From Pontibacter mangrovi (GTDB lineage: Bacteria > Bacteroidota > Bacteroidia > Cytophagales > Hymenobacteraceae): a DNA stretch of 64,000 nt. The stretch spans positions 186,001 through 250,000 of the forward strand of contig NZ_VFRQ01000002.1 of assembly GCF_006385705.1 (NCBI RefSeq), read 5' to 3'. Positions 4,972-43,834 of this stretch are shown piece by piece; within the stretch, counting starts at the first letter, position 1; each line of letters starts with the position of its first letter. The notes under the pieces were generated by a model, which searched no databases, was not told where the DNA came from, and saw only the letters and a list, made by a program, of their open reading frames with translations. A program made the position numbers and the translations under genes.

Positions 4972-5180
4972 TTTGTGCAGTGGAATTGGAAGTATAAATT
5001 TCGCTGTGTAAATATGCAAAATTCCAGATATACTTTACAGGAATTTAGGCAGTCCCCTATCGCCTCTTCTATTTTTTTCCTTAATTTAGAAAACATGGAA
5101 AGTATGCCCATAGGCAAGACCACTCCGGCCACCGGCATGCTTGCTCCTCATAACGAGTTTATAAACTTATTCCTCTTTGT

Positions 5181-5648
5181 ATGAAACAGTTTGTTACGGC
5201 CTGTCTTTGTTGCCTGCTAAGTATGGTCAGCTTCTCCGGGAGCGCGCAATCAAACCCCATCACGCTTCGGCTCAACCACATTGCTGTGTATGTGCACGAC
5301 CTGGGACAGAGTACCGCCTTTTATGAAGACGTGCTCCAGCTAAAGCAAATCCCGGAGCCTTTCCACGACGGCCTTCACACCTGGTTCTCTCTGGGAGACG
5401 CCGGTCAGCTGCACCTCATACAGGGAGCGGCCCAGAACATTCCGCGCGATAAGAACGACCACCTCTGCTTCAGCGTGGCATCCATCGAGGACTTCATCGC
5501 CAACCTCGACAAGCACCAGGTAGCTTACACCAACTGGCCCGGCACCGCCAAAGCCCCCACCGTGCGCGTGGACGGCGTGAAGCAAATCTACTTCCAGGAC
5601 CCGGACGGGCACTGGATCGAGGTGAATAATGACAGGCTGGGAAAGTAG
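5181..5648 (+). CDS. Secreted VOC (glyoxalase/bleomycin-resistance) family protein
   Basis: A 155-residue protein with a signal peptide (~1-23, ending GSAQ). One vicinal-oxygen-chelate domain follows: LNHIAVYVHDLGQSTAFYED at the start, HLCFSVASIEDF in the middle and IYFQDPDGHWIEVN at the end. His in the first strand, His in the middle strand and Glu in the last strand are the usual metal ligands. One such domain normally dimerises to form the active site. A VOC protein exported to the periplasm is less usual than the cytosolic glyoxalase I type, so the substrate is unknown. It ends just before the convergent RAYT gene. Confidence 0.87.
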   Translation: MKQFVTACLCCLLSMVSFSGSAQSNPITLRLNHIAVYVHDLGQSTAFYEDVLQLKQIPEPFHDGLHTWFSLGDAGQLHLIQGAAQNIPRDKNDHLCFSVASIEDFIANLDKHQVAYTNWPGTAKAPTVRVDGVKQIYFQDPDGHWIEVNNDRLGK

Positions 5649-5661
5649 GTGCTATACAAAC

Positions 5662-6198
5662 TTACTGATAGAATACATCTTCAGGCCATTTCTCCGGATT
5701 GCTCAGAATATAATCTCTGATCTAATTATAAGCTCTTTCATTCCGGATAATGTGATCGTGGAAGGAGCGCTGCCAGGAGAAGTCTGTTAAACCTGCTGCC
5801 CTTATTAGTTTAGTTGTCGTGGTTTTGTAGGCCCCTATTAGTTGAGACAGAGATTTGCTTTTGAGAGATAGGGAGAGAGGCGTTTCTGTTTCAGCTGCAT
5901 GTCCTAGCGCGGACAGGTCGCGACCTGTCCCTACAGCATCACGGTCAATTTCCAGGATACCATGCACATGGTTCGGCATTACCACAAAAGCATGAAGCAC
6001 CACATACGGATATTGTTCCTTAAGCCAGGTCCATTGCTGCTCTGCTATACAGCCATACTTATTTAGCTGCATTGTTTCGTTCACCACCTCACCAAATACA
6101 CACGCTTTATCCTTTACACAGGAGGTCATAAAGTATAGCGCGTCCCTGCTGTAGTCAAACCCATTTAACCTGTTCCGTTTCCGATCCGGCCATTTCAT
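5662..6198 (-). pseudogene. REP-associated tyrosine transposase (RAYT), interrupted by an amber codon
   Basis: Starting at the ATG at 6198 this reads as a Y1/IS200-like RAYT. It opens with MKWPDRKRNRLNGFDYS, has the HUH motif in MPNHVHGILEI, the probable catalytic Tyr in SLSQLIGAYKTTTT, and the C-terminal signature WQRSFHDHIIRNERAYN. A TAG at 5722-5724 stops it there, but the same frame continues as IRDYILSNPEKWPEDVFYQ and ends at TAA (5662-5664), exactly the conserved end of the family. The last 19 residues are therefore lost to one nonsense change unless it is read through. A REP palindrome lies inside the gene and adds residues TGRDLSAL to the frame. RAYTs cut and join REP DNA. Confidence 0.85.
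5908..5936 (-). repeat. REP palindrome inside the RAYT gene
   Basis: It holds the perfect 20-nt palindrome GGACAGGTCGCGACCTGTCC at 5911-5930. On the minus strand it is preceded by CTGTAG and followed by GCG, which makes a 29-nt element identical to 6247-6275 in inverted orientation. The GTAG directly 5' of the palindrome is the tetranucleotide known for REP elements recognised by RAYT enzymes. Confidence 0.9.
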
Positions 6199-40129: not shown

Positions 40130-40280
40130 GCAATTTTATACTTTGTGATTTTCCCCTGCTCCATCGGTTACAAGCTGTAGTTGGAAGGGCGTCGCAGAAG
40201 TTGCCGGAAGTATAAAATCATAAAAAGCGGGTAAGACTGGCAGCAGGCATGCAGTTGTTTACGCTCATTTCTGTAGCTGT

Positions 40281-41057
40281 TTAACAGCCTTTGCGCAGGT
40301 TATCGGCAAAGGCATTCGGCAGCGCGCTATCCTCTATGGCACGGGCCGCTTTCTCGTAGTCATACTTAAACCGGATAAACTCTACCTGTATACTGTCCTT
40401 GTCCAGCACGGAGCTGCTCTCAACCAAGGTAAGCATCACATAGCCTCCGCGGTTATCGCCATCCTTAGGCTTGCCCACCGAGCCTATATTGACGGCGTGG
40501 CGAAAGCAGTCCTTCTCCCCCTCTCCTGATCTCAGTATCCGGTGGTACGGCTTGTGGGTATGCCCGAAGCACAGGATGTCGGCATTGGCGTTTTGCATCA
40601 GGCGCAGCAGGCTTTTCTCCTCGCGGTCTTCGAACAGGTACTCGTTTACCCTTCTGGGGCTGCCGTGCACAAGCAGCAGGTTCAGTTTGTGGCTGTTTAG
40701 CTGGTACTCTACCCTGATGTGGGCCGGGAGCGTTCGGAGGTAGCGGCGCTGCTCGGGCTTGATGGTTTCGTTGGTGAAGGAGATGGAGATAGCGCCGTTG
40801 GCCTTTTCTTCTTCCGTTTTGTAGGCACAACCGCAGTCGCTGCTTTCCCTGCCAACGCCAAAGTCATAGTTGCCGGCAATGGTGGGGATGTTGCGCCTCC
40901 TGATCTCGTCGATCACTTCATTCGGCCAGATGTTGTAGCCTACCAGGTCGCCGAGGCAGTAGATAAAGTCCGGCTTCCTGCTGTCTACATCCGCAAAGAA
41001 AGCCTCCAGCGCGGGCAGGTTGGCGTGGATGTCGCTGAAGAGCGCTATCTTACTCAT
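40281..41057 (-). CDS. YfcE/MJ0936-type metallophosphoesterase in the ars-like operon
   Basis: A 258-residue calcineurin-like phosphoesterase with all metal motifs: FSDIHANLPAL (Asp9, His11), CLGDLVGY (Asp37), AGNYDFGVG (Asn63; Tyr replaces the usual His of GNHD), LLVHGSPR and CFGHTHKPY. It also carries a CGC pair (Cys75, Cys77) and a C-terminal Cys258. It starts 34 nt after the DUF6428 stop on the same strand, so it belongs to the ArsR operon. Substrate unknown; its place suggests a phosphorylated product in metalloid handling (inference). Confidence 0.9.
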   Translation of the reverse strand: MSKIALFSDIHANLPALEAFFADVDSRKPDFIYCLGDLVGYNIWPNEVIDEIRRRNIPTIAGNYDFGVGRESSDCGCAYKTEEEKANGAISISFTNETIKPEQRRYLRTLPAHIRVEYQLNSHKLNLLLVHGSPRRVNEYLFEDREEKSLLRLMQNANADILCFGHTHKPYHRILRSGEGEKDCFRHAVNIGSVGKPKDGDNRGGYVMLTLVESSSVLDKDSIQVEFIRFKYDYEKAARAIEDSALPNAFADNLRKGC

Positions 41058-41091
41058 TGCTTATCTTATATTTAGCAAGTATAGCGGCAGT

Positions 41092-41547
41092 TTAGCAGCA
41101 GCCACCGCCGGGAGTGCAGGCGTTACCTGTTGCCACTACTTTAAGCTGTTCCATCGGGATGCCGCACTTATCGGGGGCCAGGCAGTTGGTGGTTTTCGAA
41201 AGCAGCACAAAGCTCTTTCCGTTATAGCCAAGGCCATACTTGCCGATGGTATCCCCCTGGTACTCCACCTCAATTTCCAGGTCTTCCATATCCAGCGCTT
41301 TCTCGGACAGGCCAATGATGTGAAGCAGCTTCTGCGGCTTTAGCCTGTGCTCAAAGTCGTTGGCATCCCATAGCTGAAAGTTTGCCACCTTCTCGCTGCG
41401 CACCGTGCCGCCGCAGTCGATGAAGCGCTTGGCAACCACGCCTACCTCCGTTACATGGAAGTGCGCCGGCACCTTTGCCCCGTTCTCCAGTTCAAAATCC
41501 ACCGCCTCCGCAGTTTGCAGTATTTGTTTTACTTCTGATAGTTTCAT
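41092..41547 (-). CDS. DUF6428 family Cys-rich protein
   Basis: A 151-residue soluble protein with MKLSEVKQILQTAEAVDFELENGAKVPAHFHVTEVG (family start, split here by sense), FIDCGGTVR, and a Cys-rich tail with Cys122, 128, 144, 150 and 151 (ending GGGCC). The family often follows ArsR in Bacteroidota arsenic operons. Six Cys and three His would suit As(III), Sb(III) or a similar soft metal. It lies 36 nt downstream of arsR and is read with the metallophosphoesterase. Confidence 0.85.
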   Translation of the reverse strand: MKLSEVKQILQTAEAVDFELENGAKVPAHFHVTEVGVVAKRFIDCGGTVRSEKVANFQLWDANDFEHRLKPQKLLHIIGLSEKALDMEDLEIEVEYQGDTIGKYGLGYNGKSFVLLSKTTNCLAPDKCGIPMEQLKVVATGNACTPGGGCC

Positions 41548-41583
41548 GATAAGTATGGTTAACTACAACAATGAATATACTTG

Positions 41584-41916
41584 TTAGCAACAGGTGGTAT
41601 CCTGCTCTCTGACACCGGACAGCAAAGCAGAGAAATAGCGGTTCAGGTAGTCGAATGCCTTCTCATCCAGGCAATAGCAGATAGCGCTGCCCGCTACCGT
41701 GCCTTTGATGATGCCGGCCTTCTTTAGCTCCTTCAGGTGCTGCGACACAGTTGCCTGCGCCAGCGGCAGTTCAACCACTATATCGCCGCACACGCAGGAT
41801 TTTGCCTTTAGCAGGTGCCCGATAATGGCAACTCTTGCCGGGTGGCCCAAAGCTTTCAGCAGGACGGCGACCTTGTTCTGCTCCGCCGTAAAATGCTCCG
41901 TTTTTGTTAATCCCAT
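41584..41916 (-). CDS. arsR: ArsR/SmtB family metalloregulator
   Basis: A 110-residue winged-helix repressor with ALGHPARVAIIGHLL, CVCGDIV (Cys41, Cys43), the recognition helix PLAQATVSQHLKELK, and YCLDEKAF. Extra Cys at 80, 82, 109 and 110. ArsR proteins release DNA on binding As(III), Sb(III) or other soft metals through Cys thiolates; the C-x-C pair near the recognition helix is the likely site. A perfect palindromic operator is 12 nt upstream. It heads the operon arsR-DUF6428-phosphoesterase. Confidence 0.94.
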   Translation of the reverse strand: MGLTKTEHFTAEQNKVAVLLKALGHPARVAIIGHLLKAKSCVCGDIVVELPLAQATVSQHLKELKKAGIIKGTVAGSAICYCLDEKAFDYLNRYFSALLSGVREQDTTCC

Positions 41917-41928
41917 TGTCCCGATCTT

Positions 41929-41950
41929 TTCATCGTAATATTACGATGAA
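41929..41950 (-). promoter_or_regulatory. ArsR operator
   Basis: A perfect 22-bp palindrome whose centre is CATCGTAATATTACGATG. It lies 12 nt upstream of the arsR start. A TTTTG box (41956-41960 on the minus strand) is at -33 distance, so the operator covers the expected -7 region. This fits autorepression. Confidence 0.85.
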
Positions 41951-42041
41951 TATTTCAAAACAGCAAGAGATAAATGCTCTTGGGGCAAAAGCTTAAAGTA
42001 TGGGTTTGTAGAGGAAGGCCAATCATAGTATAAAATCCTTG

Positions 42042-43220
42042 TCAGTTAACTGCCTGGGCTGGCTGCGGAAGGCTAAGGAAATAGAGGATCACCAGCACCG
42101 TAACGGTTGCCGTGGTTAAGAAGGCCGCCGTAGCCCCAAACTGAAACCAGATAAGCCCCGTCAGCGAGCTTGCCAGCATGGTGCAGATGCTCTGGAAGCC
42201 GGCGTAGGTTCCGATCGCCGTTGCGGTGTCTTTCCTACTTGTGATGTTGGAAATCCATGCCTTGGAGATGCCCTCGGTGGCGGCGGCGTAGATACCGTAG
42301 AGCAGGAACAGGCCGTAAAACAAGTACAGGTTCGTGTTTACCGCCATCCCGAAGTATACGGCTGCAAACAAGCTTAGCCCAATGATGAAGATCGTCTTGA
42401 GCCCGACCTTATCTGCCACCACACCTACCGGGAAAGCAAACAGGGCATAGACAAGGTTATAGAAGATATAGACCCCGATCACCGTTGTGTCATCCAGCCC
42501 GGCCGCCTTTGCCTGCAGCAGCAGAAACACATCAGAACTGTTGAACAGCGTAAAGAGGAGCAGGCCGCCAACTACTTTTCTGTAAGCTGCGGGGCTTTCT
42601 TGCCAGTAATGCAGAAATGAGAAAAACGAGGTCGGCGCCTTGGTTGCTGGTGCAGGAGATCTCTTCTCTCTGAGCAGGAAGGTAGTGCCAACGGCCAGCA
42701 GCCCCGGCACAAACGCTATAAAGAAAAGCGCTTTGTAATGCTCCGGGTGATAGTGAAGGTATACCAACGCCAGGGCCGGGCCGATAACAGCCCCCAGGGT
42801 ATCCATGGAGCGGTGAAACCCGAAGATCTTGCCCTTTGTTTGCGGCGTCGCCTCATCCGACAGGATAGCATCTCTGGCTCCTGTTCTAATGCCTTTCCCG
42901 AACCGGTCGATGGTTCTGGCAAGGAAAATCCAGAGGGGAAACACGAATATGGCCATCATCGGTTTTGACACGGCGCTGAAGGCATACCCCACCTGCACAA
43001 ACGGCACCCGCCTGCCAGAGGCATCCGACATCTTTCCGAAATAGCCTTTGCTCAGTCCTGCAGTGGCTTCGGCAACACCCTCAAGTATACCAATAAGCAC
43101 AACAGAGAAGCCTATGGACTTCAGGTAAATTGGCATGATGGGGTAGAGCATTTCGCTGGCTGTATCGGTAAACAAGCTTACCAGCGACAAAACCCACACT
43201 GTTTTGGAGATATGCTTCAC
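42042..43220 (-). CDS. MFS transporter of the ars-like module
   Basis: A 392-residue, 12-helix major facilitator. The start MKHISKTVWVLSLVSLFTDTASEMLYPIMP, the A-like loop GKMSDASGRRVPFV, and the DRFGKGIRTGARDAILSDEA segment mark it as the MFS group often found by metal-resistance regulators. It lies 125 nt upstream of arsR on the same strand, with the operator between. It may be read through into arsR or be a separate unit. Export of a metalloid or its conjugate is plausible but unproven. It does not resemble ArsJ by eye. Confidence 0.88.
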   Translation of the reverse strand: MKHISKTVWVLSLVSLFTDTASEMLYPIMPIYLKSIGFSVVLIGILEGVAEATAGLSKGYFGKMSDASGRRVPFVQVGYAFSAVSKPMMAIFVFPLWIFLARTIDRFGKGIRTGARDAILSDEATPQTKGKIFGFHRSMDTLGAVIGPALALVYLHYHPEHYKALFFIAFVPGLLAVGTTFLLREKRSPAPATKAPTSFFSFLHYWQESPAAYRKVVGGLLLFTLFNSSDVFLLLQAKAAGLDDTTVIGVYIFYNLVYALFAFPVGVVADKVGLKTIFIIGLSLFAAVYFGMAVNTNLYLFYGLFLLYGIYAAATEGISKAWISNITSRKDTATAIGTYAGFQSICTMLASSLTGLIWFQFGATAAFLTTATVTVLVILYFLSLPQPAQAVN

Positions 43221-43475: not shown

Positions 43476-43547
43476 GGCCCTGTAGTTCAATGGATAGAAT
43501 AGGAGTTTCCTAAACTCTAGATCCAGGTTCGATTCCTGGCAGGGCCA
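43476..43547 (+). tRNA. tRNA-Arg(CCT)
   Basis: A 72-nt cloverleaf: acceptor GGCCCTG with CAGGGCC, anticodon stem GGAGT/ACTCT, loop TTCCTAA with anticodon CCT (reads AGG), and T arm CCAGG-TTCGATT-CCTGG. The discriminator is A; CCA is not encoded. Confidence 0.95.
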
Positions 43548-43834
43548 CAAAACCGCTGACACTGCGCGCCAAGCCATACTATACACCGCTCTCCTGGCCG
43601 TAAAACATTGCTTTCCCAGATAAAATTTCCCAGCCATTTCCCTATCCATCCAGCCTGAACAAAGATTTATACTTCATGCAGGTTTCTCTGCACCTAGTAT
43701 GCCCTCGCTTTGCTTGTGCTACAAACAGTTAAAAAACGCAACGCTCTAGCACCAAGCTACAAATGTTTTGCAGGTGTGTAACATTCTGCGCACGATTACA
43801 TATATATACTACTATACTACATTTCTGGCGCACC

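Follow-up and report, generated by a model that had tools for sequence, protein, structure and literature searches.

A putative Car1-type arsenate-reduction operon without its usual acr3 pump gene in Pontibacter mangrovi

An arsR gene that is followed by genes for a DUF6428 protein and a metallophosphoesterase, and preceded by a gene for an MFS transporter, raises the question of which route of arsenic resistance, if any, is encoded by a locus from which the classic ars genes are missing. The locus was analysed within a 64-kb window (the whole stretch of DNA under study, 64,000 nucleotides) and against the genome of its host (4.88 Mb, estimated to be 100% complete). The favoured reading, to which a probability of roughly 0.77 was assigned, is that of an ArsR-repressed operon for Car1-type arsenate reduction (arsR-DUF6428-car1) that resembles those commonly carried by Pontibacter and related bacteria but has lost acr3, with arsenite leaving the cell through GlpF or, less likely, through the MFS protein. 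The ars operon is genuine and its kind is known, with a reductase type that was described recently; apart from the lost pump gene, the locus is largely typical of its relatives.

The four genes and the palindrome reported by the first-pass annotation were all recovered in their places, with every gene on the minus strand. These genes encode an MFS transporter (43220-42042; PF07690, 5e-39), which represents a separate gene upstream of the operator, an ArsR/SmtB repressor (arsR, 41916-41584; PF01022; NF033788 at 65 bits, over the cut-off), a DUF6428 protein of 151 aa (41547-41092; PF20001, 1.3e-61) and a metallophosphoesterase of the Car1 family (41057-40281; PF12850/PF00149). A tRNA-Arg gene (cct; 43476-43548, plus strand), the sole tRNA gene of the window, is located a short distance upstream of the MFS gene.

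The 125-nt gap between the MFS gene and arsR contains a perfect 11+11 palindrome (41929-41950; TTCATCGTAAT/ATTACGATGAA), which begins 12 nt ahead of the arsR start codon and represents the putative ArsR operator. This palindrome was found once in the 4.88-Mb genome, where a search allowing up to three mismatches revealed no further copies, and shuffling the upstream region 100 times never produced an equally good palindrome. As the operator is unique, a second ArsR-regulated locus in the genome was rejected. Its core, ATCGTAATATTRCRAT, is present upstream of arsR in many relatives, and the variant TATGTCGTATATTTACGACATA precedes arsR in Hymenobacter. The arsR product carries a CVC motif and a C-terminal Cys pair, and the ArsR/SmtB HTH, the Cys ligands close to the DNA-binding helix and the operator palindrome are those expected of an arsenite-responsive repressor; from its sequence, the protein is presumed to act as an arsenite sensor and autorepressor. 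Assignment of the locus to an arsenic-type (ArsR) module was upheld. Operator control is a fair claim for arsR, DUF6428 and the phosphoesterase gene; it does not include the MFS gene, whose stop codon precedes the operator, so that no control over that gene would be exerted from such a position. A search for a terminator between the MFS gene and arsR returned weak hairpins only, with folding no better than that of shuffled sequences.

The phosphoesterase is almost certainly, on the strength of its sequence features, a Car1-type arsenate reductase. According to the account given in a 2025 paper (PMC12124457, citing Shen et al.), Car1 of Rufibacter tibetensis is an arsenate reductase with a metallophosphoesterase fold in which Cys74 and Cys76 are essential, and a clostridial metallophosphoesterase encoded in an ars operon, ~40% identical to Car1, keeps both residues. 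The CGC pair pointed out in the first-pass annotation was located at Cys75 and Cys77 of the window protein, which has one additional N-terminal residue, and these align with positions 74 and 76 of Rufibacter and Adhaeribacter proteins; the match to Car1 was made via such Rufibacter-group proteins, with the residue numbers of R. tibetensis Car1 taken from the citing paper. Because the pair aligns with Cys74/Cys76 of Car1, it is read as the reductase signature. Both the Cys pair and the metal ligands were invariant in all 12 proteins of the Rufibacter/Adhaeribacter alignment and in all 18 of a more diverse alignment, in which the ligands correspond to D9, H11, D37, N63, H131, H166 and H168. The protein thus unites the traits of a Car1-type enzyme, i.e. 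a calcineurin-like metallophosphoesterase domain, intact metal ligands, a Cys-x-Cys pair and a location in an arsR-controlled ars operon. Its membership of the Car1 family together with the Cys pair indicates that the arsenate-reductase step is present; the earlier proposal that the phosphoesterase recycles a carrier is therefore not needed, and the suggestion of an undescribed resistance route is not supported. The window protein is ~60% identical to homologues from the genus Rufibacter, and no other branch of its Pontibacter clade is as long as its own; its activity could therefore have drifted.

Phosphoesterases with a CxC pair were also encountered elsewhere. Six Pontibacter genomes (L206, L207, L208, L210, L211 and L212) encode a CGC-bearing one, 80-84% identical and located at about 5000-5774 of the respective loci, where the flanking 5 kb contain neither arsR nor DUF6428 nor acr3 and, in several cases, a histidine-kinase gene adjoins; these proteins form a single clade in the tree. 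Homologues on cyanobacterial plasmids (L229 and L231; ~34% identity) keep the CxC motif (CECS and CDCS) and adjoin folE and genes for a GTP-binding protein, outside an ars context. Given such homologues, CxC alone is no proof of arsenic use. Furthermore, ars operons of Pedobacter, Dyadobacter and Taibaiella were shown to contain, directly after the CGC-bearing gene, a tandem second phosphoesterase gene whose product is devoid of the Cys pair (at about 6776-7540 in L111, L113, L115, L118, L120, L121, L138, L140, L149, L154, L158, L161 and L164). This second protein is probably of the MrMe2 type and may be a true phosphoesterase.

A lack of conserved linkage of the phosphoesterase gene or the MFS gene to arsR in relatives had been set beforehand as grounds for refuting the proposed module; the phosphoesterase gene passed this test and the MFS gene failed it. 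Among 80 named phosphoesterase loci, mostly from Bacteroidota, at least 77 have arsR nearby, at least 66 ACR3, at least 42 DUF6428 and at least two the MFS gene, these counts being lower bounds since some contigs are short. DUF6428 is carried by 82 of the 150 sampled genomes of the host family, and the regions around 40 of these loci exhibit the order arsR-DUF6428-(arsC or arsN)-metallophosphoesterase-ACR3, with variation; the 361-aa protein that follows the metallophosphoesterase in relatives is ACR3 (TIGR00832, 447 bits). All 13 other Pontibacter DUF6428 loci are arranged as arsR-DUF6428-metallophosphoesterase-acr3, with ACR3 encoded directly after the metallophosphoesterase. Homologues of the MFS gene, conversely, had ars neighbours at one of 20 loci of the family and at none of 29 loci of the phylum (checked to 1.5 kb).

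Searches for the missing genes were negative at each scale. The 64-kb window contains no acr3, no LMW-type arsC and no ArsI relic, and neither acr3 nor a relic of it is present downstream of the metallophosphoesterase gene at 40130-40280, where acr3 begins in the 13 other Pontibacter loci; an acr3 relic in the window was thus rejected. Across the whole genome, no ACR3, ArsB, ArsP or LMW-type ArsC was found, the sole SBF-family protein resembles a pantothenate transporter, and matches to ArsM were weak and of a generic methyltransferase nature only. The absence of the usual pump and of LMW-type ArsC extends to the genome, and the operon is not a complete one in the sense of being accompanied, in the operon or in the genome, by a known arsenite pump (ACR3, ArsB or ArsP). 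The best reading is that it has lost its terminal acr3 gene. This loss may be recent. A point against the favoured reading is that a cell which reduces arsenate but has no pump for the product might suffer from it.

The DUF6428 protein of the window ends in ACTPGGGCC. Its AlphaFold model displays an alpha/beta fold of fair confidence (mean pLDDT 79), with a low-confidence, Cys-bearing C terminus; a known fold was rejected, as comparison of the model with the PDB gave no significant fold match and comparison of the sequence gave no match. Searches of the available literature on DUF6428 and on the tail sequence retrieved nothing relevant. A scan of the 6,125 ORFs from 160 loci yielded 93 instances of the tail, C-x-P-(G/A)-x-G-C-C, every one of them at the very end of a protein and none internal; its bearers are DUF6428 proteins (77 of 82), ArsM (nine of 27) and ArsI-type proteins (seven of 13). 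Tail-bearing loci include the window (41092-41547), L167, L213, L214, L216-L218, L221, L223 and L224, among others. ArsM is a methyltransferase and ArsI has a glyoxalase fold, and neither matches DUF6428. The exclusiveness of the tail to ars proteins is partly a matter of sampling because the loci were chosen for their ars genes; its sharing across three families and its lack of internal copies are no sampling effect. A similar tail was observed at the end of an ArsD in L130; ArsD is a known arsenite chaperone. The simplest reading of the CxPGxGCC tail is an arsenite-binding tag, and DUF6428 is a possible arsenite-binding helper. A tentative extension of this, considered less probable than not by some distance, is that DUF6428 represents a new arsenite-handling family and that the tag is shared by otherwise unrelated ars proteins (DUF6428, ArsM and ArsI-type), which would pass arsenite among themselves or to a pump; in the window, the tag protein and the reductase would have stayed while ACR3 was lost.

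A locus that has lost its pump without trace might also be a decaying remnant, in which resistance disappeared with acr3 and the operon is drifting. The long Car1 branch fits such decay, as does a median dN of 0.102 for the window phosphoesterase versus 0.071 among relatives. However, all frames are open, neither the catalytic residues nor the metal ligands have been altered, and the palindrome of the operator is perfect, while arsR, DUF6428 and the phosphoesterase gene are under purifying selection (median dN 0.10-0.15 versus dS 1.2-1.6; dN/dS ~0.1 for each). Decay is consequently regarded as unlikely.

In the favoured reading of a pump-less Car1-type operon, ArsR would sit on the palindrome until released by arsenite. 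The Car1-type protein would convert arsenate to arsenite via Cys75/Cys77 and be recharged by thioredoxin, with the chemistry taken from Car1, for which Shen et al. (2024, Mol Microbiol) reportedly proposed that Cys74 attacks arsenate, that a Cys74-Cys76 disulfide is formed and that thioredoxin serves as the reductant. The C-terminal CxPGxGCC tail probably enables the DUF6428 protein to bind arsenite or to pass it on. Arsenite may then exit passively through GlpF, as with AqpS in Sinorhizobium, and export by the MFS protein would be a less likely way out. The genome encodes one MIP channel, which can be identified as GlpF since its gene adjoins that for glycerol kinase (glpK). Aquaglyceroporins are established arsenite transporters, and the Sinorhizobium AqpS may replace a pump (PMC6205960). 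A MIP gene is present in some related operons where acr3 was not found (L071, L107 and L125).

The alternative in which the MFS protein took over arsenite export from ACR3, making MFS-arsR-DUF6428-car1 a complete resistance unit, draws on the absence of acr3 and on the position of the MFS gene directly upstream in the same direction, and MFS pumps such as ArsJ are known from ars operons (review PMC6205960). Two other loci lend it some colour: a distant Bacteroidetes MAG (L167, 2000-3550) shows the same MFS-operator-arsR order with an MFS protein that is 68% identical, and an ars operon of Hymenobacter (L104/L091) encodes an MFS homologue after arsC. Nevertheless, both L167, where arsR is followed by arsC, arsM, acr3 and a phosphoesterase gene, and L104 retain acr3 in the operon concerned, the MFS copy of Hymenobacter is interrupted by a stop, and the MFS proteins of the three ars-linked cases are scattered in the tree. 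With 19 of the 20 family loci and all 29 phylum loci devoid of ars neighbours, and with no recurrent partner gene found for the MFS homologues, a role as conserved ars partner was rejected; moreover, the MFS gene ends before the operator, of which there is no second copy. Takeover is accordingly quite improbable: the MFS gene is largely an independent neighbour and is not a proven substitute for the arsenite pump. The first-pass idea of an ArsJ-like route, in which a metalloid would be phosphorylated or conjugated and then exported by the MFS protein, with the phosphoesterase serving to recycle its carrier, can be set aside as very improbable. In its favour, a phosphoesterase fold and an MFS gene occur near each other, and ArsJ belongs to the MFS and is believed to carry an arsenate-phosphoglycerate derivative out of the cell (PMC6205960). 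However, no GAPDH gene adjoins the MFS gene, no ArsJ or ArsK model is among the NCBIfam matches of its product, the MFS gene is not conserved as a partner, and the phosphoesterase belongs to the Car1 family, bears the Cys pair of the reductase and is usually accompanied by ACR3.

The main points of interest are the loss of a pump while the remaining genes stay under purifying selection, and a Cys tail common to three unrelated ars families (DUF6428, ArsM and ArsI), which provides the DUF6428 family with a concrete, testable role. Genes annotated as 'metallophosphoesterase' beside arsR are probable arsenate reductases, and arsenate reduction in many Bacteroidota is therefore overlooked by surveys based on arsC only. 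Whether a cell benefits from reducing arsenate when it has no dedicated exporter is a question for which the pump-less operon provides a natural test.

Among known systems, GAPDH-ArsJ of Pseudomonas aeruginosa shares with the locus an MFS gene near arsR, whereas the locus is devoid of GAPDH, its MFS protein matches no ArsJ model and the MFS linkage is not conserved. The AqpS-ArsC pair of Sinorhizobium meliloti (PMC6205960) follows the logic proposed here, with arsenate reduced inside and arsenite leaving down its gradient via a channel, although in the present strain the gene for the GlpF channel is located at another place in the genome, away from control by the ars operator. The ars operons of Mucilaginibacter gossypii P3 (PMC10652896) likewise contain metallophosphoesterase genes in a Bacteroidota setting (mrme1/mrme2, described there as uncharacterized), but as two tandem copies and alongside acr3, arsC and arsN. 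On plasmid pls1 of Pontibacter kalidii (NZ_CP111080.1), which accounts for one of the 13 other Pontibacter loci and is annotated as arsR-DUF6428-metallophosphoesterase-acr3, the first three genes have the same order and are about 74-83% identical; unlike in the window, acr3 is present and no MFS gene lies upstream. As for Car1 of R. tibetensis itself (doi 10.1111/mmi.15289), as depicted in the citing paper, the window protein, a predicted reductase, differs in its distance from the Rufibacter homologues and in having no acr3 behind it, while the two share fold family, metal ligands and Cys-x-Cys position, come from related genera and have homologues in ars operons.
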